This document shows positions 1 through 64,000 of a stretch of DNA of 64,000 nt, in pieces; position 1 is the stretch's first letter, and each line of letters opens with the position of its first letter. The DNA is taken from positions 434,001 through 498,000 of the forward strand of contig CANXME010001991.1 in the NCBI GenBank assembly GCA_948144175.1. Reading direction: 5' to 3'. The notes under the pieces are model-generated. The model was not told where the DNA came from. It saw only the letters and a program-made list of their open reading frames with translations, and did no database searches. The position numbers were made by a program, and so were the translations under genes. The DNA is from Closterium sp. NIES-65 (taxonomy: Eukaryota > Streptophyta > Zygnematophyceae > Desmidiales > Closteriaceae).

Positions 1-152
1 AGGGCGCGCGGGTAGTGAGAGAGGTGTGTGGGTGGTGGAGGGAGAGCAGGTGCGAGTGTTGAGGGTGGAGCTAGCATGATTAGGGAGTGATGAATTTCTG
101 CTCACCTTGATGGTCACAGTATCACAATGAAGCTCAATCACTCTGACATAAT
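1..152. other. Intron 9 of the glucosidase gene, no exon seen
   Basis: AT-richer sequence left of the 38-bp array. A diverged array unit (CACCTTGATGGTC) occurs near 102. I see no candidate for the last MRH exon here. Confidence 0.6.
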
Positions 153-532
153 CACCTTGATACTCCTGGCTGGTCCGTTCCAGCAGTGCTCACCTTGATG
201 CTCCTGGCTGGTCCGTTCCAGCAGTGCTCACCTTGATGCTCCTGGCTGGTCCGTTCCAGCAGTGCTCACCTTGATGCTCCTGGCTGGTCCGTTCCAGCAG
301 TGCTCACCTTGATGCTCCTGGCTGGTCCGTTCCAGCAGTGCTCACCTTGATGCTCCTGGCTGGTCCGTTCCAGCAGTGCTCACCTTGATGCTCCTGGCTG
401 GTCCGTTCCAGCAGTGCTCACCTTGATGCTCCTGGCTGGTCCGTTCCAGCAGTGCTCACCTTGATGCTCCTGGCTGGTCCGTTCCAGCAGTGCTCACCTT
501 GATGCTCCTGGCTGGTCCGTTCCAGCAGTGCT
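153..532. repeat. 38-bp minisatellite, 10 copies, seeded at the exon 9 donor
   Basis: Units start at 153, 191, 229 and every 38 bp to 495; all but the first look identical. On the minus strand each unit is the last ~34 bases of exon 9 plus GGTG, so each holds a copy of GPARSIK and an AAG-GTGAGC donor. The unit is not a multiple of 3, so using a distal donor would shift the frame. Confidence 0.95.
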
Positions 533-585
533 CGCCATCCTCAAACGCCATCACCGTGTGCTCCTCCTCAAACCGCTTGAAGTGC
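498..585 (-). CDS. Glucosidase II beta exon 9 (MRH sugar-binding loop)
   Basis: 88 bp after acceptor GCGCGCAG (ends 586). Encodes [17 protein letters not shown], then [12 protein letters not shown], the typical GxxCWNGPxRS loop. The donor AAG-GTGAGC at 497 is the first of ten identical donors in a 38-bp array. The remaining MRH strand (with the conserved Glu and Tyr) is not in the window. Confidence 0.88.
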
Positions 586-1821
586 CTGCGCGCCCGCCCC
601 GCCACACACACACACGGTCAGGGGGGGCCATGGAATGGAACGTAGCAGTCTTACACGTTTGGTCAGTTCCCCAACATCAGTTCCCTCTTGATTCTTTCCT
701 ACCTCCCCTCATGCCCCAACACGATTGCACCACCACCACGCAATGATGCCGTCACGCCATCATACGACAGTGCTGTCACAGTGATCATGCCGTCATGCAA
801 TGATGCCGTCACACTGACTCACCCAAGAGTCGTCTCGGAGTGCCCTTCCTTCTGCACCGCCTTCTTGTACGGGCAGATCTCATACGTGTACCTGCTCCGC
901 CCAGCCGCCCCACGCAGGACACACGGGTGGAAAGAAGCAAGTGCATGGTTACTAGTGCATGGTTACCAGTGCGCACCAACAAACCCGTGCAGGCGGGGGA
1001 TGCGGGACGGTCCCAAGCAAAAAGGAAAGTGAACCGCAAATAATGCAGGCAAAAGAGAAGACCGGCATGCAAGAGAAGCATGATAGAGAGGCTTGGCAAG
1101 GAGGCATGCAAGCGACTCCCTTAAAAGAGGGAAATCCGTTGCACACAGGGTGAACAACAGGGCATGAAGCAACCGAGGTGGGTAAGCTCGGCAAGTAACG
1201 AGAAAGTGTGTGCAGCGCTTTGGGGGGGCGAAAGGGGCCTCACTGGTTGGCGTTGAATGAGAAGCAGCGGTCAACGAGGTTGGAGAACTCCCCGTGTGGC
1301 CCTGCGAGGGGGCACATGGGGATGGGTGTACGTGAATGGGACGAGGGGGGTGTGAAGGGGATGAAAGAGCAAAGATTGGTGCTGAGGAGCAAGGAGGTTG
1401 AAGAGTGCGAGGAGTAGAGGCACGTCGTGTCCCCTCTGTTCCACTTCCTGAACCATCAGCGCCTTCGTTGCTGCCAAGTAAGAGGACGCAGAAACAGCAA
1501 AAGCAAGGAGCCTTCGTTGCTCCAAGGAGCAGAAAGCGGGGGGAGGGGGAAAAGCGTTGTGTCAGCAGTGCACAGTGCATGGAGGTGAGGTGTCAGGTTG
1601 CACAAGAAACGAAAGCACTTCCCCCCACACCTCTCACACCCGGTCACACGCGTCACAACTGACCGTAGTCGCGCTTGAGCTTGTCCCTCAGCACCTTGGC
1701 GCGGCTCCTCGCCTTCCTCAGCTGCTCCTCCACCCCCCTGTGCTCCTCCCGAGCTGCCTCCACGCCTGATATATGGTGCAGGCAAGGGCGTGCTCACCGC
1801 ACGCAAGCATGCACCCATGCG

Positions 1822-1874
<53 letters not shown>

Positions 1875-4800
1875 ACACGCACACACAGACACACACGCAC
1901 ACACACACACACACACACGCACACACACACACACACATGCACACACACAAACATGCACGCACGCATACACTCTCGCACGCACGCACACACGCACGCACGC
2001 ACACACGCACGCACGCACACATGGACGCACGCACGCACGCACACACACACACACACGCGCGCACGCACGCACGCACACACATGCATGAGGAGTAAAAGGA
2101 CAGAGTCAACAGAAGGCGAGAGGATGAAGACTTGGAAGCATCAACCAACAGCACACGTGCTGCACCCTCCACGCTACTCATACACTCTACGATAAAACGA
2201 TGCTTCTGTGTCGTGAGTAGAAGGCCACGTGCAAGCCATGCTGTGGCATGTGCTATGTGGCAACGCCATGATGCCGTGCTGGCAGTGCGCGAGGCAGCAC
2301 TCACGAGAGGCGTTGAGGGTGAGCGGTGGCGTGGGGGTGGCGAGGGAGTAGAGGCGCGAACACACGGCCATGGGCCAGTGGAGGGTGCGAGCCAACCAGA
2401 CACTGACAGGTGTCACGGCTGGATGAGAGGCACAGCGGAATGGGAGGCAAGAACGTTGAGAGAAAATGGTCAGAAAGCAGGCGCATGCACGTGAAAGCAG
2501 GCGCATGCACGTGAAAGCAGGCGCATGCACGTGAAAGCAGGCGCATGCACGTGAAAGCAGGAGAGGGAAGTGTTGGAAAGAGGCTGCTCATTATCCATCC
2601 AATAGCCCCACAATCTGGATGGATTCTCCTAGAGTTTTTGCTGATTGCACCTTATCCACCTGATCCCCTTCCCACATTGCAGCCATATTCCGTGAAGAAG
2701 CACGTGAGTGCATGTGCATGCATACTTTTCTCGAATCAGCCCTTCATCGCCCTCACGCTATCTCGTCTAGCCTACAGAATCATCTACCATCTCATTGCCT
2801 TGGTGTATCGTGTCATCTCTCACACGCCATGTCGTCTAACCCCCCGTGTCATCTCACCCGCCGTGTCATCTCACCCGCCGTGTCATCTCACCCGCCGTGT
2901 CATCTCACCTGGCGGGTCATCTGGGTTGAACTCCTCCAGCTGCTTCAACTCCTCCACACTCACCTCGCCCTCCTCCCCATCCCCCTCCTCCACTCCTCTT
3001 CCATCTACCCCTGCCCCTCCCTTGCCCTCATCCGCCTCCCCTCCCCCCGCGCCCATCCCTTGTTCCAAATCCGCTGCCTCCTCCTCCCCCTCACTCTCAC
3101 CATCCCCATCCGCGTCCTCCTCATCATCCTTGCTGTAGTCCTCATCCTCGTTATCAGCATCCTCCTTGTACTCATCGTCGTCATTGCCACTGTAGTCATG
3201 GTCATCATCATGATCATGATCACCGCTCTGCACCGCATCCGGATCAGCATACCCCAAATCAGGGGGTGGCAACCCCTCGTGCACCACACCTTGCTCTGCC
3301 GCATGCCCACTGTGCTCCTCGTGCTGCTCTCCTCCCTCCCCCCCGCCAGTCCATCGGGAGGCAATCCGCCGCCCCATCTCCTCTTTAGACAGACCTGACA
3401 AATCCTCGCTTCCACCTTCCCCCTCGCCCCCTGCTGCTCCCTCCTCTCCTTGCCCCTTCTCCTCACTTCCTGTGCCCGTCACTGCACTCGCCACACCATC
3501 GACACCATCCCCAGCTGCCCCATCAACACCACCAGCCTCAGCGTCCCCACCATTCCACAGCTCCTCCGCCTCTGCTGGCACCTTCCCGTCCCAACTAACC
3601 GCACTCCCCCCACCACCACCACCATCAGCACTGCCGCCGTCACCATGAGCAGCGGCGGTCCTCACCGGGCGGGTGTGCGCCACAAGGGCGTCCCTGGCGC
3701 GCTGCTCCCTCTCCAGCCTCGCCCTCCACGCCTTCTCCCTCCCCTCCTGCCGCTCCCACTCCTCCTTGCGCGCTGCACTCTCACATGGGTGCATGCACAC
3801 AGCAGACACGCACACACGCCCGCACGCAGGCACATATGCACTCACGCACGCACGCACACAGGCACACACGCACACGTGTACACATGCACGCACACTCACA
3901 TGCGCACATACGCACACGATGCACACACGCATGCACATGTGCACGCAATAACACACGGAGCAACAGCGGAGAGGTGTTGTGGGGGGCTGTTGCAGATGTG
4001 TGCAGCAGTAGCATATTGACGATGAGAGTGAGTGGTATTCAATGAGGAATGAATGGGTGTGAGGGTGAATGAGTGAGTGTGTGTGAGTAGAAGACAGCAA
4101 AGAGCACAGGAGGAGGAGAAAGACTGGGACCATAACTTGAAAGACTGGGACCATAACTTGAAAGACTGGGACCATAACTTGAAAGACTGGGACCATAACT
4201 TGAAAGACTGGGACCATAACTTCAAAGACTGGGACCATAACTTGAAAGACTGGGACCATAACTTGAAAGACTGGGACCATAACTTGAAAGACTGGGACCA
4301 TAACTTGAAAGACTGGGACCATAACTTGAAAGACTGGGACCATAACTTGAAAGACTGGGACCATAACTTGAAAGACTGGGACCATAACTTGAAAGACTGG
4401 GACCATAACTTGAAAGACTGGGACCATAACTTGAAAGACTGGGACCATAACTTGAAAGACTGGGACCATAACTTGAAAGACTGGGACCATAACTTGAAAG
4501 ACTGGGACCATAACTTGAAAGACTGGGACCATAACTTGAAAGACTGGGACCATAACTTGAAAGACTGGGACCATAACTTGAAAGACTGGGACCATAACTT
4601 GAAAGACTGGGACCATAACTTGAAAGACTGGGACCATAACTTGAAAGACTGGGACCATAACTTGAAAGACTGGGACCATAACTTGAAAGACTGGGACCAT
4701 AACTTGAAAGACTGGGACCATAACTTGAAAGACGAGGGTTGGGGTGGAGGGGAGAGCGACGAATGTGGAGGGCAGGGAAGTGGGAAGACAAAGGCAACGA

Positions 4801-7800
4801 GCAGGAGGAAAAGAGAGGGCATGCGAGGAGCAAAACAGGTAAGCAGAAAAGAGAGAGGTGCCAGTGTCATGACAATCATAGTAGCCAAACAGACAGAACT
4901 GAACTCGTTCAAAAACAAGTTCATTTGAGACGAATCTACAAGGTGGCGATTCTGAGTCCATTGCAGGTGATGAGCAAACCAAGTCTCAGCTGGGCACATC
5001 CAGCTAGCAGAGGCGATTGTACTCCTATGCAGGTTGCTAGCTAGCTGGCTGTTATGGCACATGCAAGTAAGTCATTAATGGCAGTGGCTGGTCTGCTTTC
5101 TCTCCCCCATTGGCCGCTGCGCATTCTAGTGGACGACACCGTGGGGCTGAGCAGCAGGGCAGCGGCAGCGGCAGCGGCAGCGGCAGCAGGCACGGGCGAT
5201 GGAAGCATTGGCAGAGCTGGTGGCCCGGCAGCAGCACGGTCGTCACTGCAGCAGCTTAGGGCGCCGCCGCCCAGAGGGGTGGTGGGGGTGGCGCCTGCGG
5301 GTAGGCGTGAGGGCGGCAAGGCAGGGGCAGAGCGAGGCCATGGTGCGGTGGCACAGGCGCAGGCAGGCGCAGGGGGGGGCGAGCAGCAGCGCACGCAGGG
5401 GGCGGTGGCAGAGGAGGAGGGCGAGCAGGGCGAGGAAGAGCAGCAATGGCGGCAGAGAGGCCGAGGCGAGCAGCGAGTGCATGTGCTCTGACATGCCATG
5501 CCCGCACGGTGGGGGGGGTAGTGGCATGGTGGCGGTGCCGAGTCGGGCAGCAGGACAGCGAGTGGGCGGCAGCAGGATGGGCAAGCGGGCGGCAGGTCGG
5601 GCGGCAGATGGAGGCGATGCAGTGAGGCAGGCACGTTGCGTAGCCAACGGCGAGGAAGAGATACGCACACAAGGACACACGGACAGGGGGTTGGGTTGGG
5701 GTGCAGGATGGGGAGGAGAAAGAGGTGGGGCAGGAGTGGACAAGAGGTGGGGCAGGAGTGGACAAGAGGTGGGGCAGGAGTGGACAAGAGGGCAGGCAGG
5801 TAGAATGAGGTCAAGCACGGTGAGGTGGTCGGGGCACGGTGAGGTGGTCGGGGCACGGTGAGGTGGTCGGGGCACGCATGCGTGTGATGGGTGACCTGTG
5901 AGAGAGCAACGACCATTCACCTTTGAGCGCCTTCTCACCTTTGAGCGCCTTCTCACCTTTGAGCGCCTTCTCACCTTTGAGCGCCTTCTCACCTTTGAGC
6001 GCCTTCTCACCTTTGAGCGCCTTCTCACCTTTGAGCGCCTTCTCACCTTTGAGCGCCTTCTCACTAGGGATGAGCATAGGGACCCGGCGGGTCGGGTCGA
6101 CCCGACCCGACCCGGGTTTTGACCCGGGTCGGGTCAGGAGTTCTGAACCACTGACCCGGCCGGGTCGGGTCGGGTATACCCGGCCGGGTCGGGTCGACCC
6201 GTGACCCGATTCCGGGTCGGGTCGGGTCGGGTCGGGTTTTGACCCGATTATGGACTCGACCCGGTTTCGGGTACCGCGCCCTATCTCGGGTTGGGTATCT
6301 GGCCCGACCCGAGGGTTTCCTCTCGACAATGTTATCCAGATCGCAATCGCGCTTGCTTGTTTTCCCAGCAACTAGCATTTCGATCTGGATTAAGTTAGGT
6401 TAACTAGCTAGTGACGCCAGCAGCCACCCACCAAGCAACATTGGCGTACTAATCTACCCTAGAACCCACGATAATGTTTAGTTAGTACTCAGCCAATCGC
6501 ACTTCGCACTTCGCGCCATCCATCCTAGGGTTTCTTTTAAATCCAAAATTTACAGGTCGCGCTCCCACCCTAGGCGCGCGCATTGCAGGCCCGCGTTTTA
6601 GGGCATCTCGGCGCGCCGTGCAGGCGCAGGTCGCTAGACCCGCGCCCCTACACATTATTAAGGAGAACCTCTAACCCTGCCTATGGGAGTCGGCCCGACC
6701 CGACCCGACCCGGCCCCGACCCGACCCGACCCGGGGGCGGGTCAAGCCTGACCCGGCACCCGATACCCGGGTCGGGCCAGAGATCTCAAAAGTTCCGACC
6801 CGACCCGACCCGACCCGGAACCCGGCTGGCCCGCCAAAGTCGGGTCGGGTCGGGTCGGGTCGGGTCATTTGATCATACCTAGAACTTCTCACCTTTGAGC
6901 GCCTTCTCACCTTTGAGCGCCTTCTCACCTTTGAGCGCCTTCTCCTGCTCCACCAGGTGTGCGCGCCGCTCCTCCAGGTGCGTGACCTCGCGCTCCCACT
7001 TGTCCCTCAGCGCCACGTGCCCCACCACCGCCTTGCCTCGCAGCTTCACGCCCTCCCTCACCGCCGCCACGTCAGCTGCCAGCTGGCTGCGCGTCTCGGC
7101 GCCCATCTGGACACACGTGTTGTTGCAGCCCGCCCCGCTGGCGTACTCGTCCGACCCGTCACAGCAGTCTGATGGGCGCGGGGGAGGGAGGGGGGGCGGA
7201 GGGCGAGAGAGAGGGATGGGGGGGCGAGGCCACAGCATTGGTGGAGCGTGAGGTGAGGCATCTGGGAGAGGAGAGGCATGCTCACGCAGCCTCATGCTCT
7301 TGACGCATGCCCCAACACACATCCCATCCCAGCACATGCCCCTCGAGACTGCAGTTAACCCACAGGGCATCCAGCCAAGCCACAAAGGGCATCACTTCAC
7401 AGCGGATGGATGAATGGAGACATGACAGTGCACTGACCGCAGATGCACAAGAGCATGACAGTGCACTGACCGCAGATGCACAAGAGCATGACAGTGCACT
7501 GACCGCAGATGCACAAGAGCATGACAGTGCACTGACCGCAGATGCACAAGAGCATGACAGTGCACTGACCGCAGATGCACAAGAGCATGACAGTGCACTG
7601 ACCGCAGATGCACAAGAGCATGACAGTGCACTGACCGCAGATGCACAAGAGCATGACAGTGCACTGACCGCAGATGCACAAGAGCATGACAGTGCACTGA
7701 CCGCAGATGCACAAGAGCATGACAGTGCACTGACCGCAGATGCACAAGAGCATGACAGTGCACTGACCGCAGATGCACAAGAGCATGACAGTGCACTGAC

Positions 7801-9769
7801 CGCAGATGCACAAGAGCATGACAGTGCACTGACCGCAGATGCACAAGAGCATGACAGTGCACTGACCGCAGATGCACAAGAGCATGACAGTGCACTGACC
7901 GCAGATGCACAAGAGCATGACAGTGCACTGACCGCAGATGCACAAGAGCATGACAGTGCACTGACCGCAGATGCACAAGAGCATGACAGTGCACTGACCG
8001 CAGATGCACAAGAGCATGACAGTGCACTGACCGCAGATGCACAAGAGCATGACAGTGCACTGACCGCAGATGCACAAGAGCATGACAGTGCACTGACCGC
8101 AGATGCACAAGAGCATGACAGTGCACTGACCGCAGATGCACAAGAGCATGACAGTGCACTGACCGCAGATGCACAAGAGCATGACAGTGCACTGACCGCA
8201 GATGCACAAGAGCATGACAGTGCACTGACCGCAGATGCACAAGAGCATGACAGTGCACTGACCGCAGATGCACAAGAGCATGACAGTGCACTGACCGCAG
8301 ATGCACAAGAGCATGACAGTGCACTGACCGCAGATGCACAAGAGCATGACAGTGCACTGACCGCAGATGCACAAGAGCATGACAGTGCACTGACCGCAGA
8401 TGCACAAGAGCATGACAGTGCACTGACCGCAGATGCACAAGAGCATGACAGTGCACTGACCGCAGATGCACAAGAGCATGACAGTGCACTGACCGCAGAT
8501 GCACAAGAGCATGACAGTGCACTGACCGCAGATGCACAAGAGCATGACAGTGCACTGACCGCAGATGCACAAGAGCATGACAGTGCACTGACCGCAGATG
8601 CACAAGAGCATGACAGTGCACTGACCGCAGATGCACAAGAGCATGACAGTGCACTGACCGCAGATGCACAAGAGCATGACAGTGCACTGACCGCAGATGC
8701 ACAAGAGCATGACAGTGCACTGACCGCAGATGCCGTCGTTGACTCGCGAGGAGAAGAGCGTGAGTGGCATGTGGCCGCGGTTGGCGCAGTAGAAGCGCGC
8801 CAGCGCGCATGCTGACGTGCCTGCAGGGGGACCAAGGGTGCGGTGGAGAGAGGGCAGCGTGGAGAGGGGTGGACGGGGTTGAAGCGGGCGGGGTAGGGAG
8901 GAGTGAAGGGAGGAGGCCAGAATGGAAACACACGCGGAGCCATGGTAACCTGGTAACCTGGTAACCAGGTCCCTCCTCACGAGCCCCAGTGGTGAGGTGG
9001 GGTGGCACCCACCCGGCTCGTCGGTGCCATCAGCGCAGTCACAGAAGTCGTCGTTCACCCGCTGCACCGCCACTGACCGCGACCCGTCGCGGCACCGCAC
9101 CTCGCTGCCCGAGAAGTACGCCACGTCTGCCGCGCGTGACGCGCGTGAGGCGTGGCGCATGCGAGGCGGGGCGCGGCAAGGCGGATGGGCGCAGGGCAGG
9201 CGGACATGGAGAGGGAGGGAAAGGGCAGAAGCGGGGGGGGGGTGGGGAGTGGGGAGAGATGAGCGGGTGGAAAGGGTGGGGGTAAGGGAGGCGAGCGACC
9301 GGCGGGAACAGCGCCGGGCGGCTGACGAAGCCGCGATTCGCCTCTCCACTCCATGCGATCCCCACTCCGTGCGATCCCCACTCCGTGCGATCCCCACTCA
9401 TTCCGCCGCTTCGCTGTCGCTGCGGGCTAAACGGCTAAGTGGCTACACGGGTCTCGGCGCGCAGTGGGCGAGCGGACAGATGCGCGCGACGCAAGCTGCA
9501 GCGACATTCACGTTCAATTACGCCCGCGCTCGCGCGCCCGCTCGCTCGCGCGCGCTCGTGCGGGCGGGACGGCAGCGTGCGCTGGACTTGTGAGTCATCT
9601 TGGACCATGACCGCAGCGCCATGGACTTGCCTTGAGGGGCGACGCCGCGAATTGACGGAGGAGCGGCCGCGAGCGAGCCGATTGCGAACAACACCAATGC
9701 GACGACTGCGATCGCGAGTGCTTGCGGGAAGCAGGCGAGCGACCTTGGCGATGCGCGAAGCAGTGCCAT
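498..9769 (-). CDS. Glucosidase II beta subunit (PRKCSH/PSL4-like), nine exons visible, 3' end outside window
   Basis: Non-catalytic subunit of ER glucosidase II, which trims glucose from N-glycans; in this family the beta subunit retains the alpha subunit in the ER and its MRH lectin domain binds mannose branches. Joining nine exons by GT/GC-AG borders gives 590 codons with every phase matching (1,1,1,1,1,1,2,2,0). Seen in order: signal peptide (about residues 1-33); [10 protein letters not shown]; Cys-rich module with [16 protein letters not shown] (70-85); second module [16 protein letters not shown] (110-125); charged coiled coil (about 140-240); Gly/Glu/Asp-rich region with a plant-like [15 protein letters not shown] segment; a second helix; MRH domain with [12 protein letters not shown] and [11 protein letters not shown] (578-588). 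The final MRH residues and ER-retention tail must lie left of position 1. The start is the ATG at 9769, directly before the hydrophobic leader. Introns are swollen by minisatellites and one MITE. Identity is very likely; exact borders are by eye. Confidence 0.92.
823..891 (-). CDS. Glucosidase II beta exon 8 (MRH domain)
   Basis: 69 bp between acceptor GAGCAG (ends 892) and donor GTGAGT at 822. Encodes [20 protein letters not shown], the second MRH strand pair with its cysteine. Phase 2 at both ends. Confidence 0.87.
1244..1301 (-). CDS. Glucosidase II beta exon 7 (MRH domain start)
   Basis: 58 bp between CCTCGCAG (ends 1302) and donor GTGAGG at 1243. Encodes [18 protein letters not shown], carrying the first MRH cysteine. 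Exits in phase 2. Confidence 0.85.
1664..1765 (-). CDS. Glucosidase II beta exon 6 (helix before MRH)
   Basis: Acceptor ATATCAG at 1766 and donor G-GTCAGT at 1663. Encodes [15 protein letters not shown], then a basic helix ending KLKRDYG, the conserved helix before the MRH lectin domain. Confidence 0.88.
1826..2085. repeat. CA-rich microsatellite in intron 5
   Basis: About 260 bp of (CA)n with interspersed CG steps, forming (CACG)n blocks. It lies about 60 bp upstream (in gene orientation) of the exon 6 acceptor. Open frames through it are low-complexity artefacts. Confidence 0.95.
2468..2560. repeat. 20-bp tandem repeat, ~4.5 copies, intron 5
   Basis: Direct repeats of GCAGGCGCATGCACGTGAAA in the middle of intron 5, not at a splice site. 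Confidence 0.9.
2812..2913. repeat. 17-bp tandem array seeded at the exon 5 donor
   Basis: About six units; those at 2846-2896 are identical and the two at 2812-2845 are diverged. On the minus strand the founding unit ATGACCCGCCAGGTGAG is the last 11 exon bases plus GGTGAG, and later units keep GGGTGAG. The unit is out of frame. Confidence 0.9.
2909..3772 (-). CDS. Glucosidase II beta exon 5 (coiled coil and acidic region)
   Basis: 864 bp. Starts after GAGTGCAG (acceptor at 3773) with [16 protein letters not shown], continuing the helix of exon 4. It runs through a Gly/Ala/Glu-rich stretch, the plant-type segment [16 protein letters not shown] and a long Asp/Glu tract, then ends [16 protein letters not shown]. 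The donor CCAG-GTGAG at 2908 lies in a 17-bp tandem array. Phase 1 at both ends. The acceptor is inferred from phase; its polypyrimidine tract is poor because a CA-rich microsatellite abuts it. Confidence 0.85.
3781..3950. repeat. CA/CG-rich microsatellite next to exon 5
   Basis: Imperfect (CACG)n and (CACA)n in intron 4, abutting the inferred exon 5 acceptor on the upstream side of the gene. Confidence 0.85.
4123..4735. repeat. 21-bp minisatellite, ~29 copies, intron 4
   Basis: Unit GACTGGGACCATAACTTGAA plus A, essentially invariant except for one TTCAAAG copy near 4222. It is open in several frames on both strands because 21 is a multiple of 3; I do not treat it as coding. Its unit does not match a flanking exon. 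Confidence 0.95.
5040..5900. other. GC-rich segment inside intron 4, origin unclear
   Basis: GC-rich sequence with a (GCAGCG)n run at 5157-5190, three 22-bp repeats near 5725-5790 and three 19-bp repeats near 5818-5875. It is not needed for the spliced glucosidase protein, because exon 4 joins exon 5 in phase. Long frames exist on both strands, none with recognisable domains. It may be intronic, an insertion or an alternative exon. Confidence 0.4.
5919..6064. repeat. 18-bp array, distal part (8 copies)
   Basis: Unit CACCTTTGAGCGCCTTCT. On the minus strand it encodes EKALKG and carries AAAG-GTGAG. It continues the array at 6890-6943, from which it is separated by the MITE at 6065-6884. Confidence 0.95.
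6057..6892. mobile_element. hAT-like MITE with GGGTC/GACCC pentamer arrays (element 6065-6884)
   Basis: 820-bp element flanked by perfect 8-bp duplications CTTCTCAC (6057-6064, 6885-6892), the hAT signature. The ends are imperfect inverted repeats: TAGGGATGAGCAT at left against TAGGTATGATCAA reading in from the right, which has three extra terminal bases. Both subterminal zones are runs of GGGTC/GACCC, as in many plant non-autonomous hAT elements. There is no transposase. It sits inside the 18-bp donor array of the glucosidase gene, so it arrived after the array formed. Confidence 0.85.
6890..6943. repeat. 18-bp array, proximal part (3 copies) at the exon 4 donor
   Basis: Three units directly at the end of exon 4, each with an AAAG-GTGAG donor on the minus strand. 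The proximal unit is exon sequence. All units are in frame with EKALKG. Confidence 0.95.
6929..7168 (-). CDS. Glucosidase II beta exon 4 (CCDGSDEY and coiled coil)
   Basis: Acceptor CATCAG ends at 7169. Encodes [19 protein letters not shown] followed by a charged helix ending LVEQEKALK. Three AAAG-GTGAG donors follow at 18-bp spacing (GT at 6928, 6910 and 6892). The first is assumed here; each later one would add six residues (EKALKG) in frame. Confidence 0.88.
7421..8733. repeat. 33-bp minisatellite, ~40 identical copies, seeded at the exon 3 donor
   Basis: On the minus strand each unit begins GCATCTGCG-GTCAGTGC, the last nine bases of exon 3 plus the first 24 of the intron. About 1.3 kb of essentially perfect copies makes up most of intron 3 (7169-8724). 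The unit is a multiple of 3 and stop-free in the exon frame, so use of any donor copy would insert 11-residue blocks without a frameshift. Confidence 0.96.
8725..8820 (-). CDS. Glucosidase II beta exon 3 (start of second Cys-rich module)
   Basis: Acceptor CCCTGCAG ends at 8821. Encodes [16 protein letters not shown], then SSRVNDGIC. The donor G-GTCAGT at 8724 lies inside the first unit of a 33-bp tandem array, so the last 9 exon bases are repeated about 40 times in the intron. Phase 1 joins exon 4 to form [10 protein letters not shown]. Confidence 0.9.
9013..9126 (-). CDS. Glucosidase II beta exon 2 (first Cys-rich LDLa-like module)
   Basis: Acceptor GCGGCAG at 9129-9127 and donor GTGGGT at 9012. 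Encodes [16 protein letters not shown] followed by [17 protein letters not shown], with the Asp/Glu cluster expected for calcium binding. Phase 1 at both ends. Confidence 0.9.
9311..9420. repeat. 16-bp tandem repeat, three copies, intron 1
   Basis: CCACTCCGTGCGATCC repeated three times (near 9348-9395) within the GC-AG intron 1. Confidence 0.75.
9631..9769 (-). CDS. Glucosidase II beta exon 1 (signal peptide)
   Basis: Encodes 46 codons plus one base: Met, a short basic stretch, then the hydrophobic run [19 protein letters not shown], then [10 protein letters not shown], the usual plant start of the mature protein. The donor reads CAAG then GCAAGT, a GC-type 5' splice site; no GT donor preserves the frame here. 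It joins exon 2 as [14 protein letters not shown]. Confidence 0.82.
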
Positions 9770-60114: not shown

Positions 60115-60251
60115 GGAGCCCCAATGCTCACAGCATGCAAGCCTTGACTGCATCAGGCTGTGTGCTGTGCATGCTCATGCGGTATGTGGTTGGGTAGGGG
60201 TTGCCATTCAAAATAAGATAGCCGAATCAAAAGACTGGTGTGATCAATGCT

Positions 60252-61180
60252 CTACTTCCAGGTGTGCTCCTTGTTGAGGGATTTGCGGTTTCGCTTGAGT
60301 GAGTAGGTGATGAGGGGCTCCTGCTCCACCGCACCACCTGCATGCACCTCACTGGACGAGCCATCGTGTGGCACAGCGGGGACGCCTCCTCCACCTCCAC
60401 CCGCAGCGCCTACAACTCCCAATGCCCAAAGGGCTGTCTCGCTGTCTTGCGCTGCTGCATGCATCCCTGCCTCTCCACCTGCATGCATCCCTGCCTCTCC
60501 ACCTGCATGCATCCCTGCCTCTCCACCTGCATGCGCCTCCCCCACTCGCTCCGCCACTGCAGCAGCAGCACTGCTGCCGTCATGCCTTGCAGGCTGTGCA
60601 CTGCTGAGCACCGCCTGCCCTGCCCGCCCCGCATGCCCCCCAGCAGCCATCTGCCGCCGGTGCCACTCCTCCCACTCGTCCACCTCCCCCCTCCTCGTGC
60701 CCGCCCTCCCCTCCACCACCTCATCGCCACCGCGCCCTGCCTCCCCCGGCACCCACCCCTCCCGCACTCCCATTCCATCCCCCGCCCTCCCCTCCCCCCC
60801 ACCATCCCGTGCGCTCATCGCGTGCGCCCCATGGCACCCCTCAGGCCGCACCAGCCCGCGGGCAGCAAGGATGGGAGTGCGCCGCAGGATGTCGTCCATC
60901 GCCACCCCGCGCGCCTTCCTGCGACTGCGCTCGCGCTTGCCCTGCGCCCGCCACCTCACCGCGCCCCCACCTTCCTCTCCCTCCCCTCCCTCCCCACCGT
61001 CCCCTCCCTCCCTCCCGTGTCCGCCCTCCCCAGCGCCCCCCTGGGTGCAGCCAGCACTGCCTGTGCGCGGCAGCGGCAGCGGGGCAGGCAGCGCCCCCTG
61101 GGGCACGCGTGGCGGGGATGCCATGCGCACCCACCTGCTCTGCACTGCCACATCCGCGCATACATGCACATTGCCTTGCC

Positions 61181-61235
<55 letters not shown>

Positions 61236-64000
61236 AGGGCGCTGGGCGTGAGAGTGGGAGTGCATCTCGAGCCAACCAGTGTGACTCTCGCCTGGGCCCC
61301 CACGGTGCTCGCCTGGGCCCCCACGGTGCTCGCCTGGGCCCCCACGGTGCTCGCCTGTGCCCCCACGGTGCTCGCCTGGGCCCCCACGGTGCTCGCCTGT
61401 GCCCCCACGGTGCTCGCCTGTGCCCCCACGGTGCTCGCCTGTGCCCCCACGGTGCTCGCCTGGGCCCCCACGGTGCTCGCCTGTGCCCCCACGGTGCTCG
61501 CCTGTGCCCCCACGGTGCTCGCCTGTGCCCCCACGGTGGTCGCCTGTGCCCCCACGGTGCTCGCCTGTGCCCCCACGGTGCTCGCCTGGGCCCCCACGGT
61601 GCTCGCCCCAGTCACTGTGGTCGTGCGCGGGGCACTCACTCTGCCTCTCAGCACTGTGGTGCGGCTCAGTAGCGCATGGATGCAGCGCAAGCACATGAAA
61701 CGACTGAACCTCCTCATCCATCCCACTCTTGCTTCCCATAGCCCCACTGTGTTGTTGCGCTTTCTCTGCCGTTCCCCTTCGCTCCACCATCACCTCTTCC
61801 TGCATCCTGTCGCCCCTCTCCCCCCTCTCCTCTCTTTCCCCTTCTTTCCCCCTTTCCCCCCTCTCCTCCCGCTGTCCCCTTCCCCCTCTCTGCTCCCTGT
61901 CATCCCGCGCCCCCCACTGCCCTCGCTGCATGGGCACAGCACCCCACGCCTGCCTTTCCCCACCCACGCCCACGTTGCCACGCGTAGGGGGCAGGCAGGA
62001 GGCAGGTGGGAGGAAGGGGGGGGCGGAGAGGGGAGGGGGAGAGAGGGGGGGGACGGGGGGCAGGGGGGCGAGCGCCCAGGGGGAGGGGGAGGGGTCAAGG
62101 TCGCCGTGGGAGGCGTCCAGGTCGACCAGGTCCCACACGCCGCGCGCCCCCCTGCCCACCGCCTTCGCCTCTCTCTCGCCCCTCTCGCCCCTCCCTGCAC
62201 CCGCACTGCCTCTCACCTCGCCGCGTGAACTCGCCTCAGCTCGTCCCTCCTGCGCCACGGGCAGCACAGGTGGCCCCGCGCTCACCTCCACGCGCACGGC
62301 GCCACACATGTGTGGCAGCGCAGCAGCACGGCAAGGCGGACCACCATGCGTGCGTGCCGTGCCCACTGCGCCCCCACTACCACCATGGCGGTGGCTGTGG
62401 GCAGCAGGCAGCGTGGGTGGAGGCGAGGGCGATGTGCGTGCACGCGTGCTACTCACCACCGCGTCAGCTGCGTGTGCACAGGCGCTGGGAGGCGGGGCAG
62501 GGGTGGTGGCAGCGTGTGGTGGTGCAGGAGGCACGGGCACCATGGGCAGGGACGGACGCAGAGAGGTGGGCTCATCCAGTGGCGTGGCGGAGATGGCTGC
62601 ACACACATGTGCCGCCCGCACCTCCCCCGGTCCCCTTCCCCCACCTGCCACCTCGCCTGCTGCCACTGCTGGCGGTGTGGGAGGTGGTGGTGGTGGTGGT
62701 GGCGGCAGACGAGTGGGGGGCAGCGGCTTGGCGAAGATGAAGACAGCAAAGAGACCTGCCCAGAGGCACCGGCAGTGGGGCATGAGGGGCGCAGGCAGTG
62801 GGGCATGAGGGGCGCAGGCAGTGGGGCATGAGGGGCGCAGGCAGTGGGGCATGAGGGGCGCAGGCAGTGGGGCATGAGGGGCGCAGGCAGTGGGGCATGA
62901 GGGGCGCACGAGGAGGAAAACGCGAATGGTTGGTAAGCAAGTGCAAGGGAGGGCAGGGCTAAGGGCATTGAGCAGGGAGCACACAAATGTGGTGCACACT
63001 GGCACGAATGTGGTGCACAGTGGCACGAATGTGGTGCACACTGGCACGAATGTGGTGCACAGTGGCACGAATGTGGTGCACACTGGCACGAATGTGGTGC
63101 ACAGTGGCACGAATGTGGTGCACACTGGCACGAATGTGGTGCACAGTGGCACGAATGTGGTGCACACTGGCACGAATGTGGTGCACACTGGCACGAATGT
63201 GGTGCACACTGGCACGAATGTGGTGCACACTGGCACGAATGTGGTGCACACTGGCACGAATGTGGTGCACACTGGCACGAATGTGGTGCACACTGGCACG
63301 AATGTGGTGCACACTGGCACGAATGTGGTGCACACTGGCACGAATGTGGTGCACACTGGCACGAATGTGGTGCACACTGGCACGAATGTGGTGCACACTG
63401 GCACGAATGTGGTGCACAGTGGCACGAATGTGGTGCACAGTGGCACGAATGTGGTGCACAGTGGCACGAATGTGGTGCACAGTGGCACGAATGTGGTGCA
63501 CAGTGGCACGAATGTGGTGCACACTGGCACGAATGTGGTGCACACTGGCACGAATGTGGTGCACACTGGCACGAATGTGGTGCACACTGGCACGAATGTG
63601 GTGCACACTGGCACGAATGTGGTGCACACTGGCACGAATGTGGTGCACACTGGCACGAATGTGGTGCACACTGGCACGAATGTGGTGCACACTGGCACGA
63701 ATGTGGTGCACACTGGCACGAATGTGGTGCACACTGGCACGAATGTGGTGCACAGTGGCACGAATGTGGGACACACTGGCAGGATTCCCGTGAATGCATG
63801 GGTGGGCGCCCGCTTGCCACTGTGTGTCACAGTGGATGGCAGCACAACAGGTCGCCAGCAGCACTCACTCAGCAGGTCGCGTGCCGCCGCAGAGAGGCCG
63901 ACATGCACCGCAGCGTCCACAGGCCGCCCATCCGCCCCCTCGCCCGCTGCTGCACCCGCAGCAGCAGCAGCAGCAGCAGCAGCAGCGTCGCCACGCGGGT
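60252..64000 (-). CDS. Unidentified GC-rich gene, at least two exons, 5' end outside window
   Basis: I do not recognise the family. Exon A (63869 to beyond 64000) has a poly-Ala run, then GADGRPVDAAVHVGLSAAAR and DLL; donor A-GTGAGT at 63868. Exon B (60252-62755) starts after CTGGGCAG with LFAVFIFAKPLPPTRLPPPP and the phase fits (AGT joins as Ser). Exon B encodes about 830 residues of mostly disordered Pro/Gly/Arg-rich sequence, a Glu/Arg-rich helix (REERGERGKEGEREERGERG), fifteen GEHRGG(T/P) heptapeptides, a polyQ run, then a more ordered, perhaps conserved tail with RKARGVAMDDILRRTPILAA, four HAGGEAGM repeats and EQEPLITYSLKRNRKSLNKE before stop TAG at 60252. More introns inside exon B are possible. 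The intervening 1.1 kb is intron with two minisatellites. Confidence 0.5.
60463..60540 (-). repeat. 24-bp in-frame repeat (HAGGEAGM)
   Basis: Three to four units of 24 bp (plus strand GCATGCATCCCTGCCTCTCC...), encoding HAGGEAGM in the C-terminal part of the unidentified gene. Confidence 0.9.
61181..61236 (-). repeat. CAG/CTG triplet repeat, polyQ
   Basis: About 18 CTG triplets on the plus strand, read as a Gln tract in the unidentified minus-strand gene. Confidence 0.93.
61285..61612 (-). repeat. 21-bp coding minisatellite (GEHRGGT/P, 15 copies)
   Basis: Unit of GGTGCTCGCCTGTGCCCCCA plus C on the plus strand, with G/T variants that switch Thr and Pro at the seventh residue. In frame throughout. 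Confidence 0.92.
62771..62910. repeat. 23-bp minisatellite near the exon B acceptor, ~6 copies
   Basis: Unit begins GCAGTGGGGCATGAGGGGCG. It lies in the intron just upstream (gene orientation) of the inferred acceptor at 62756. As 23 is not a multiple of 3, the apparent protein repeat is a frame-cycling artefact. Confidence 0.92.
62985..63782. repeat. 21-bp minisatellite, ~38 copies, two variants, intron
   Basis: Unit GGCACGAATGTGGTGCACAC plus T (variant A) or with CACAGT (variant B). The left end alternates A and B regularly for about eight units; the rest is blocks of one type. Lies about 90 bp downstream of the exon A donor. Confidence 0.95.

Follow-up and report, generated by a model that had tools for sequence, protein, structure and literature searches.

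Arrays of exon edges at four splice donors of a glucosidase II beta gene in the alga Closterium sp. NIES-65, with related copies at both exon borders elsewhere

In the chicken, "exon stuttering" has been described in 236 introns of 115 genes, with 1 to 44 copies and in GC-rich genes, and in >90% of cases no more than 1 base separates the source from the exon border; in the part of that account available to us, it is presented as novel and as belonging to the avian dot chromosomes, with none in other vertebrates except for genes of the gerbil (PMC12954441, 2026). The most relevant earlier name for the anatomy of such border arrays is that of the amphioxus "mirages", in which, according to the accessible part of the source, repeat number differs between haplotypes, regular splicing is left undisturbed and somatic instability occurs (PMC3087553). 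Here, we analyze a stretch of 64,000 nucleotides (the window) from contig CANXME010001991.1 (C1693 in our numbering) in the 874-Mb assembly of the zygnematophyte alga Closterium sp. NIES-65, where a gene for glucosidase II beta carries minisatellites at several of its 5' splice sites, and we compare it with a second copy of the gene, with a diverged paralog and with a set of kinesin loci in which exon edges have been copied into the adjoining introns at acceptors as well as at donors.

The gene occupies ca. positions 1-9200 of the window on the minus strand and was identified by the best named matches to its joined protein, which are proteins of Closterium and the glucosidase 2 beta subunits of plants. 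Exon ends (Table 1) were fixed from the reading frame, phase and splice consensus. Nine of its donors (those of exons E2 to E10) fall within the window, and an earlier reading made from the letters alone (the sequence-only reading) had claimed arrays at four of them, each grown from its donor with a unit of unrelated sequence. All four arrays are real, being recovered by Tandem Repeats Finder (TRF), and of the exon borders fixed here, E5|E6 and E10|E11 also agree with published proteins of NIES-65 (P0002) and NIES-64 (P0001). The available text on these two strains states that RNA-seq hints were used for the gene models (PMC10407611). Each array overlaps the 3' end of its exon (E10, E5, E4 or E3), beginning within the final bases, and on the coding strand each unit joins the tail of the exon to the start of the intron: 36 exon bases plus GT at E10, 16 plus GT at E4, 13 plus GTGA at E5, and 9 plus 17 intron bases at E3. 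This composition had been proposed before and applies to all four, with the qualifications that the exon's own copy at E5 has diverged, matching the unit at 10 of 13 exon positions, and that the E3 unit includes 7 bases fitting neither flank. The E3 array covers the last 9 bases of its exon and continues past it with 39 identical full units, and a 2-base GA microhomology is found at the junctions of the E10 and E4 arrays. Within the whole assembly, the exact 33-bp unit of E3 occurs 53 times, 39 in this gene and 14 in the second copy (the reversed control gave 0), and the doubled 18-bp unit of E4 occurs 10 times, always in one of the two gene copies; for these two of the four units, the origin is local. 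When the exons of the gene were compared with its own introns, adjacent copies appeared at E3, E4 and E10, all on the donor side; this comparison missed the diverged E5 array and used slightly displaced ends for E6. A few weak matches were taken as noise, one for E6 (opposite strand, 67%) and two for E7 (non-adjacent, 65-68%).

TRF also reported further arrays of the gene away from known exon borders, such as 2473-2561 (20 bp x 4.4) and 4118-4733 (21 bp x 29). The latter lies inside the E4-E5 intron, and the NIES-64 protein P0001 starts with what appears to be its translation, an annotation artefact that should serve as a warning to annotators and that suggests the presence of the 21-bp array in NIES-64 too.

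The second copy of the gene is located on another contig (C10), with aligned pieces 99.3-100% identical to those of the window. The number of exact units is 39 in the window gene and 14 in the C10 copy at E3, 8 and 5 at E10, and 10 and 4 at E4 (counting units in doubled runs). Near-identical gene copies with different unit numbers indicate that the arrays turn over fast; it should be noted that these differences are between gene copies of one assembly. Both copies also have the same mobile element within the 18-bp array, so that positions 5919-6943, formerly read as a single array, are in fact two blocks separated by ca. 820 bp (6065-6884). On the right side, 2-3 bases separate the element end from the CTTCTCAC repeat. 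The C10 version has 763 bases (92% over the whole), and the element is multicopy, with at least 17 copies spanning at least bases 1-813 of 820 (40 of 413 candidates scored; those of the window and C10 are included). From its 8-bp flanking repeat, we take it to be hAT-like. Arrays of this kind could also arise as an assembly artefact, with repeats collapsed or expanded at random places, and the perfect identity of the 39 units might reflect polishing. This is extremely unlikely, given that a different contig has these arrays at the corresponding borders but with other lengths, that the element interrupts the 18-bp array in both copies and that the decayed copies described below carry substitutions unlike assembly errors.

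A more distant relative of the gene was found on contig C2202 (L048, G000:C2202:163400-165050), with an identity of 71% in the LDLa exon and 47% beyond it. In its E3-E4 intron, inspected by eye, the tail of exon 3 is present in two decayed copies and the head of exon 4 in three, one of them with a stop, and a single tail copy comes after exon 4. The E3 and E4 borders have therefore been hit independently in this paralog, with other units and on both sides. Its introns are at the same two positions (E3|E4 and the E4 donor), from which it follows that the E3 and E4 introns are older than the arrays. The tandem duplication of AGGT-containing segments as a route of intron birth, brought forward in the sequence-only reading, is thus inapplicable to these two.

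Both P0002 and P0001 join DDPP|AVTPV at E5 and RSIK|VRFKC at E10, i.e., at the first donor in each case. A later donor at E5 (17 bp, not a multiple of three) or at E10 leads to a frameshift and a stop, and it is on these two grounds, the broken frame and the annotated junctions, that we suppose selection to act on the first donor. The units of E3 (33 bp) and E4 (18 bp) all keep the frame and are free of stops, so that sequence alone cannot show sole use of the first donor there; the related Closterium proteins P0004 and P0008 have no insert at E3, and the NIES-65 model does not cover E3 and E4. The first donor is probably the one used in vivo. The inner donor copies at E10 and E4 read GTGAG and the innermost ones GTGATT (E10) and GTGAAT (E4), a decay to be expected where splicing relies on the first donor and no longer constrains the original one. 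The same features could be read as a sign that spare donors are kept because they are useful, a row of identical sites raising splicing efficiency or providing in-frame variants at E3 and E4; the open frame of all the copies at these two exons and the GTGAG of the array donors would agree with it. However, the units at E5 and E10 break the frame, unit numbers as different as 39 and 14 are found between near-identical gene copies, the exon-edge copies of the paralog have decayed (one to a stop), and selection for efficiency would not put head copies at acceptors. We consider usefulness a very improbable reason for the arrays.

Kinesin genes provided a sample in which repeats were not considered: 10 loci were picked by coordinates alone from 135 Pfam matches, avoiding obvious duplicates, and their exon borders were set from profile matches, coding score and splice consensus. 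We compared 62 exons with 52 introns using a cut-off of at least 35 bits. Adjacent introns gave 20 same-strand matches above it (of 36 in all), versus 1 on the opposite strand (of 17) and 0 with shuffled sequences (of 259). All 20 obey a simple border rule, since 9/9 downstream matches hold the 3' edge of the exon (within 15 bases) and 11/11 upstream matches hold its 5' edge (within 9). With the borders set by the analyst, 15 of the 20 sources (75%) are no more than 1 base away from the exon border, and all of them are within 15 bases of it. Exon-edge copies were present at 6/52 donors and 9/52 acceptors, affecting 12/52 introns and six of the ten loci, and they amount to 13.3% of the kinesin intron bases. 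The count leaves out a stretch judged to be a decayed copy (L037, 4681-4779), the tail copies of the last L039 exon, for which no downstream intron was defined, and a head copy of the L033 exon 749 below 35 bits. An earlier and looser comparison of 33 exon cores had found same-strand copies downstream of 8 and upstream of 7, with 1 opposite-strand match. In non-adjacent introns, 19 same-strand matches (of 226) and 1 opposite-strand match (of 398) reached 35 bits. None of the 19 was in another intron of the same locus, and 17 fall inside copies already counted, where the exon of a sister gene recognizes the dead copy of its homologue, as is expected because the loci are paralogs. Direct-repeat pairs within 900 bases, scored on the 51 introns defined prior to the inclusion of one short exon, spanned a donor in 8 cases and an acceptor in 11, with 0 exon-exon pairs; the rest of the set were 1 exon-intron, 1 intron-exon and 8 intron-intron pairs (5 from one array) and 1 inverted pair. 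The only opposite-strand adjacent match (62.5 bits) comes from L034 (oriented positions 3176-3250 and 3466-3538), where part of an exon end is repeated in inverted orientation in the adjacent intron.

Some kinesin copies also form arrays that vary in length. A 21-bp array has 21.7 units in one locus and 4.7 at the same donor of another that is 99.4% identical (L036 and L041), and the 138-bp acceptor arrays of L035 and L043 are one unit apart in length. Loci without copies have short, GC-poor introns, and those with copies have longer and GC-richer ones (L031-L040). Intron GC ranges from 0.52 to 0.58 in the six loci with copies versus 0.39 to 0.49 in the four without, a difference noticed after the fact; the exons of L032, which has no copies, are as GC-rich (0.60) as those of other loci.

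Short arrays behave differently at the two borders. Near predicted exon 3' ends, 25 were found versus 13.4 expected from local shifts (P = 0.0025), and near 5' ends, 12 versus 11.8 (P = 0.49). The test covered 167 arrays (179 unselected ones minus the duplicate kinesin loci L041-L043 and arrays of at least 1,500 bases), with a threshold of 8, a range of -15 to 40 bases and 400 shifts per setting. The eight settings agree in direction (donor P, 0.0025-0.025; acceptor P, 0.20-0.83; no correction for the number of settings). The enrichment at donors that had been predicted in the sequence-only reading thus holds for short arrays, ca. twofold and with none at acceptors, in a sample that is noisy and partly selected, as many of the 167 arrays belong to loci selected because a donor-like repeat lay at another place in them. 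Among the 179 unselected arrays outside this gene, the donor:acceptor ratios were 41:26, 29:15 and 22:7 at thresholds of 6, 8 and 10. Many known cases escape the method: at its loosest threshold, only one of the 11 arrays in the glucosidase gene was called donor adjacent, with five blocks actually at donors, and of 15 arrays at pattern-selected sites, 5 were called donor adjacent and 4 acceptor adjacent. A test on fixed 90-bp flanks had almost no power (7 donor versus 1 acceptor of 164 at its loosest, 0 versus 1 at its strictest), and a bootstrapped codon model drifted into purine-rich noncoding sequence and was replaced by one corrected for local composition.

Donor arrays recur elsewhere in the genome, at the kinesin donor of L036 and L041, which were not chosen for repeats, and in a biased sample of 18 loci fetched through a pattern of two donors and read by eye. 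Of the latter, seven have an array abutting the exon end (L014, L017, L018, L019, L020, L022 and L025) and three a likely one (L016 and L026, on the other strand, and L021, offset). In L027 the array is 25 bases inside the intron, L023, L024 and L028 have none at the site, and L013, L015, L029 and L030 are ambiguous. These loci presumably include gamma-tubulin and other genes. Two donors 22 bp apart occur 2,799 times in the genome versus 1,222 for the reversed pattern, a count dominated by arrays and not used as proof. TRF rows cover 28% of 284 kb (the window plus L009-L030, repeat-picked loci included), and the genome looks unusually rich in minisatellites.

The donor excess bears on a mutational process aimed at the 5' splice site itself, as had been argued from the four arrays, whether through an R-loop or G-rich structure, cotranscriptional nicking or slippage on GAG/GTGAG microhomology. 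Apart from the excess, such a process would account for units that end 2-4 bases into the intron in three of the four arrays, for the restriction to the donor side of the adjacent copies in glucosidase II beta and for the motif AGGTRAG in the units of 10/136 unselected arrays versus 1/136 for the reversed motif (3 of the 10 belong to this gene). On the other hand, shorter donor motifs are little enriched (GGTRAG, 14 versus 10 reversed; GTRAG, 29 versus 25), the acceptor-like YNGCAGG is just as enriched (8 versus 1), arrays are also found within introns and elsewhere, and a better tolerance of short copies at donors would yield the same excess. The longer duplications are at least as frequent at acceptors in the kinesin introns, the C2202 paralog has exon 4 head copies at the acceptor next to exon 3 tail copies at the donor, and the claim of donor specificity is not supported. 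We regard targeting of donors as improbable.

The donor arrays are the short-unit, high-copy form of border-spanning duplication. Most of the pattern is probably explained by general tandem duplication across exon borders, filtered by selection on the protein and followed by minisatellite turnover. Genes, apparently the GC-richer ones, would undergo frequent local tandem duplication of segments from <20 to >100 bp, by slippage or microhomology-mediated repair. Duplications within exons would be lost, since they alter the protein, and those straddling a border could persist if splicing keeps the outermost site, that is, the first donor or the last acceptor. Left in the intron, the spare copy would then either decay or multiply into an array as minisatellites turn over (by slippage or unequal exchange). 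Selection on the coding copy would hold each array in place at the exon, and repeated rounds would lengthen introns with dead exon-edge copies. Short units would become many-copied mainly at donors, probably because a short acceptor copy offers a premature AG to the spliceosome.

Several points weigh against this explanation. The samples, one gene and ten kinesin loci, are small, and the kinesin borders and the exon member of each pair were set by the analyst. Two of the 19 distal matches lie outside known copies and may be missed exons. Border-spanning pairs (19) relative to intron-only ones (8) exceed a rough expectation from length, an excess that is not decisive because decay should be twice as fast in the intron-only pairs, which are also harder to detect and more heavily filtered. 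Finally, the twofold excess of short arrays at donors does not follow from uniform duplication and selection alone. Exon borders might themselves be the starting points in Closterium, through an outward copying of exon edges linked to transcription or splicing, with short-unit growth favored at donors. We find this rather unlikely; if true, the introns of GC-rich genes would grow like a conveyor belt of dead edges, the oldest farthest from the exon.

The glucosidase II beta gene need not be special. If 4-6% of donors carry a short array (a rough reading of the kinesin loci, 2-3 of ca. 52), four arrays at nine donors would arise by chance with a probability of 0.0003-0.0013. In the available part of the genome description, NIES-65 has 40,587 genes with an average of 5.0 introns, and the introns average 485 bp (PMC10407611; 876-Mb column, whose assignment to this strain is presumed). 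Ca. 11-52 such genes would be expected if all 40,587 had nine donors, and fewer in truth, the mean being five introns.

Table 1. Exons, donor arrays and inserted element of the glucosidase II beta gene (positions within the window)
Feature	Positions	Strand	Basis
Exon E2, LDLa-like module, no array at donor	9013..9126	-	phase and splice consensus
Exon E3, end ...VNDGIC(G)	8725..8820	-	phase and splice consensus
33-bp array, E3 donor	7421..8733	-	TRF: x 39.8, 100% match
Exon E4, end ...EKALK(G)	6929..7168	-	phase and splice consensus, protein match
18-bp array, E4 donor, exon-side part	6885..6944	-	TRF: 3.3 copies, 100%
Non-autonomous element (~820 bp) splitting the 18-bp array	6065..6884		CTTCTCAC on both sides
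18-bp array, E4 donor, intron-side part, last donor copy GTGAAT	5917..6064	-	TRF: 8.2 copies, 100%
Exon E5, end ...NPDDPP(G)	2909..3772	-	splice consensus and published proteins
17-bp array, E5 donor	2818..2922	-	TRF: x 6.2, 88% match
Exon E6, end ...TLNAS(R), no array at donor	2305..2418	-	P0002 placed by eye
Exon E7, no array at donor	1664..1765	-	splice consensus and published proteins
Exon E8, no array at donor	1244..1301	-	splice consensus and published proteins
Exon E9, no array at donor	823..891	-	splice consensus and published proteins
Exon E10, MRH part	498..585	-	splice consensus and published proteins
38-bp array, E10 donor	152..533	-	TRF: x 10.1, 99% match

As for the rest of the window, positions 10500-60000 contain many retrotransposon-like open frames, with integrase- and reverse-transcriptase-like stretches recognized by eye. 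A probable second gene region, on the minus strand, spans 60200-64000 and has repeats of its own, namely, a CTG/CAG run (61182-61235) and two 21-bp arrays at 61287-61607 (15 copies) and 62982-63781 (38 copies).

The matches listed in the open-licence literature included no border arrays in algae or plants. The nearest plant case is reportedly the gain of introns by tandem duplication in potato, and the original account of the amphioxus mirages is said to be a paper on Adh3 from 2002. Searches of the same literature with terms for stuttering returned only the chicken paper (PMC12954441). As in intron gain by tandem genomic duplication around AGGT, the segment duplicated in Closterium holds a splice-like site; however, in the available description of that process, the new intron is born inside an exon, whereas here existing introns are lengthened, those at E3 and E4 being shared with the paralog (PMC3443670). 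Human genes in segmental duplications likewise have minisatellites across exon-intron boundaries that vary between recent gene copies, but those repeats, in the part of the source available, change exons or create alternative introns, while in Closterium the coding copy is retained and the additional ones appear to be intronic (PMC2812944). The resemblance to the amphioxus mirages, described in the accessible text as minisatellite-like tandem duplication of 5' and 3' exon/intron borders, is closer, both border types being found in Closterium too (the donor arrays, the 138-bp acceptor array of L035 and the C2202 paralog), in a different kingdom and in cases that comprise a glucosidase gene, its diverged paralog and six of the ten kinesin loci (PMC3087553). 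With avian exon stuttering, as far as its available account goes, the Closterium pattern shares the tandem copying of an exon edge with its donor or acceptor into the adjoining intron, leaving exons intact, units of tens to hundreds of bases, a copy number that varies (here between gene copies of one assembly), perhaps the link to GC richness and the existence of other, purely intronic arrays; the host is a zygnematophyte alga instead of a vertebrate (PMC12954441). The 12/52 kinesin introns compare with 190 of 5,572 introns of the chicken dot chromosomes, figures not strictly comparable as samples and thresholds differ, and Closterium adds perfect short arrays of 39 copies and a donor bias of short arrays, with no donor/acceptor split given in the available part of the chicken account (PMC12954441). 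The kind of structure is therefore known; new, as far as literature searches show, are its occurrence in this lineage, its high local frequency and the bias of short arrays towards donors. Being unicellular, with gene copies that are nearly identical and several strains sequenced, Closterium lends itself to asking how introns lengthen, how the spliceosome chooses the first among 40 identical donors and whether exon borders are the starting point of duplications or only the place where they survive. The same border anatomy in an alga close to land plants, at a higher frequency in a small sample, suggests that exon stuttering is not a quirk of bird chromosomes but a general hazard, perhaps of GC-rich genes.

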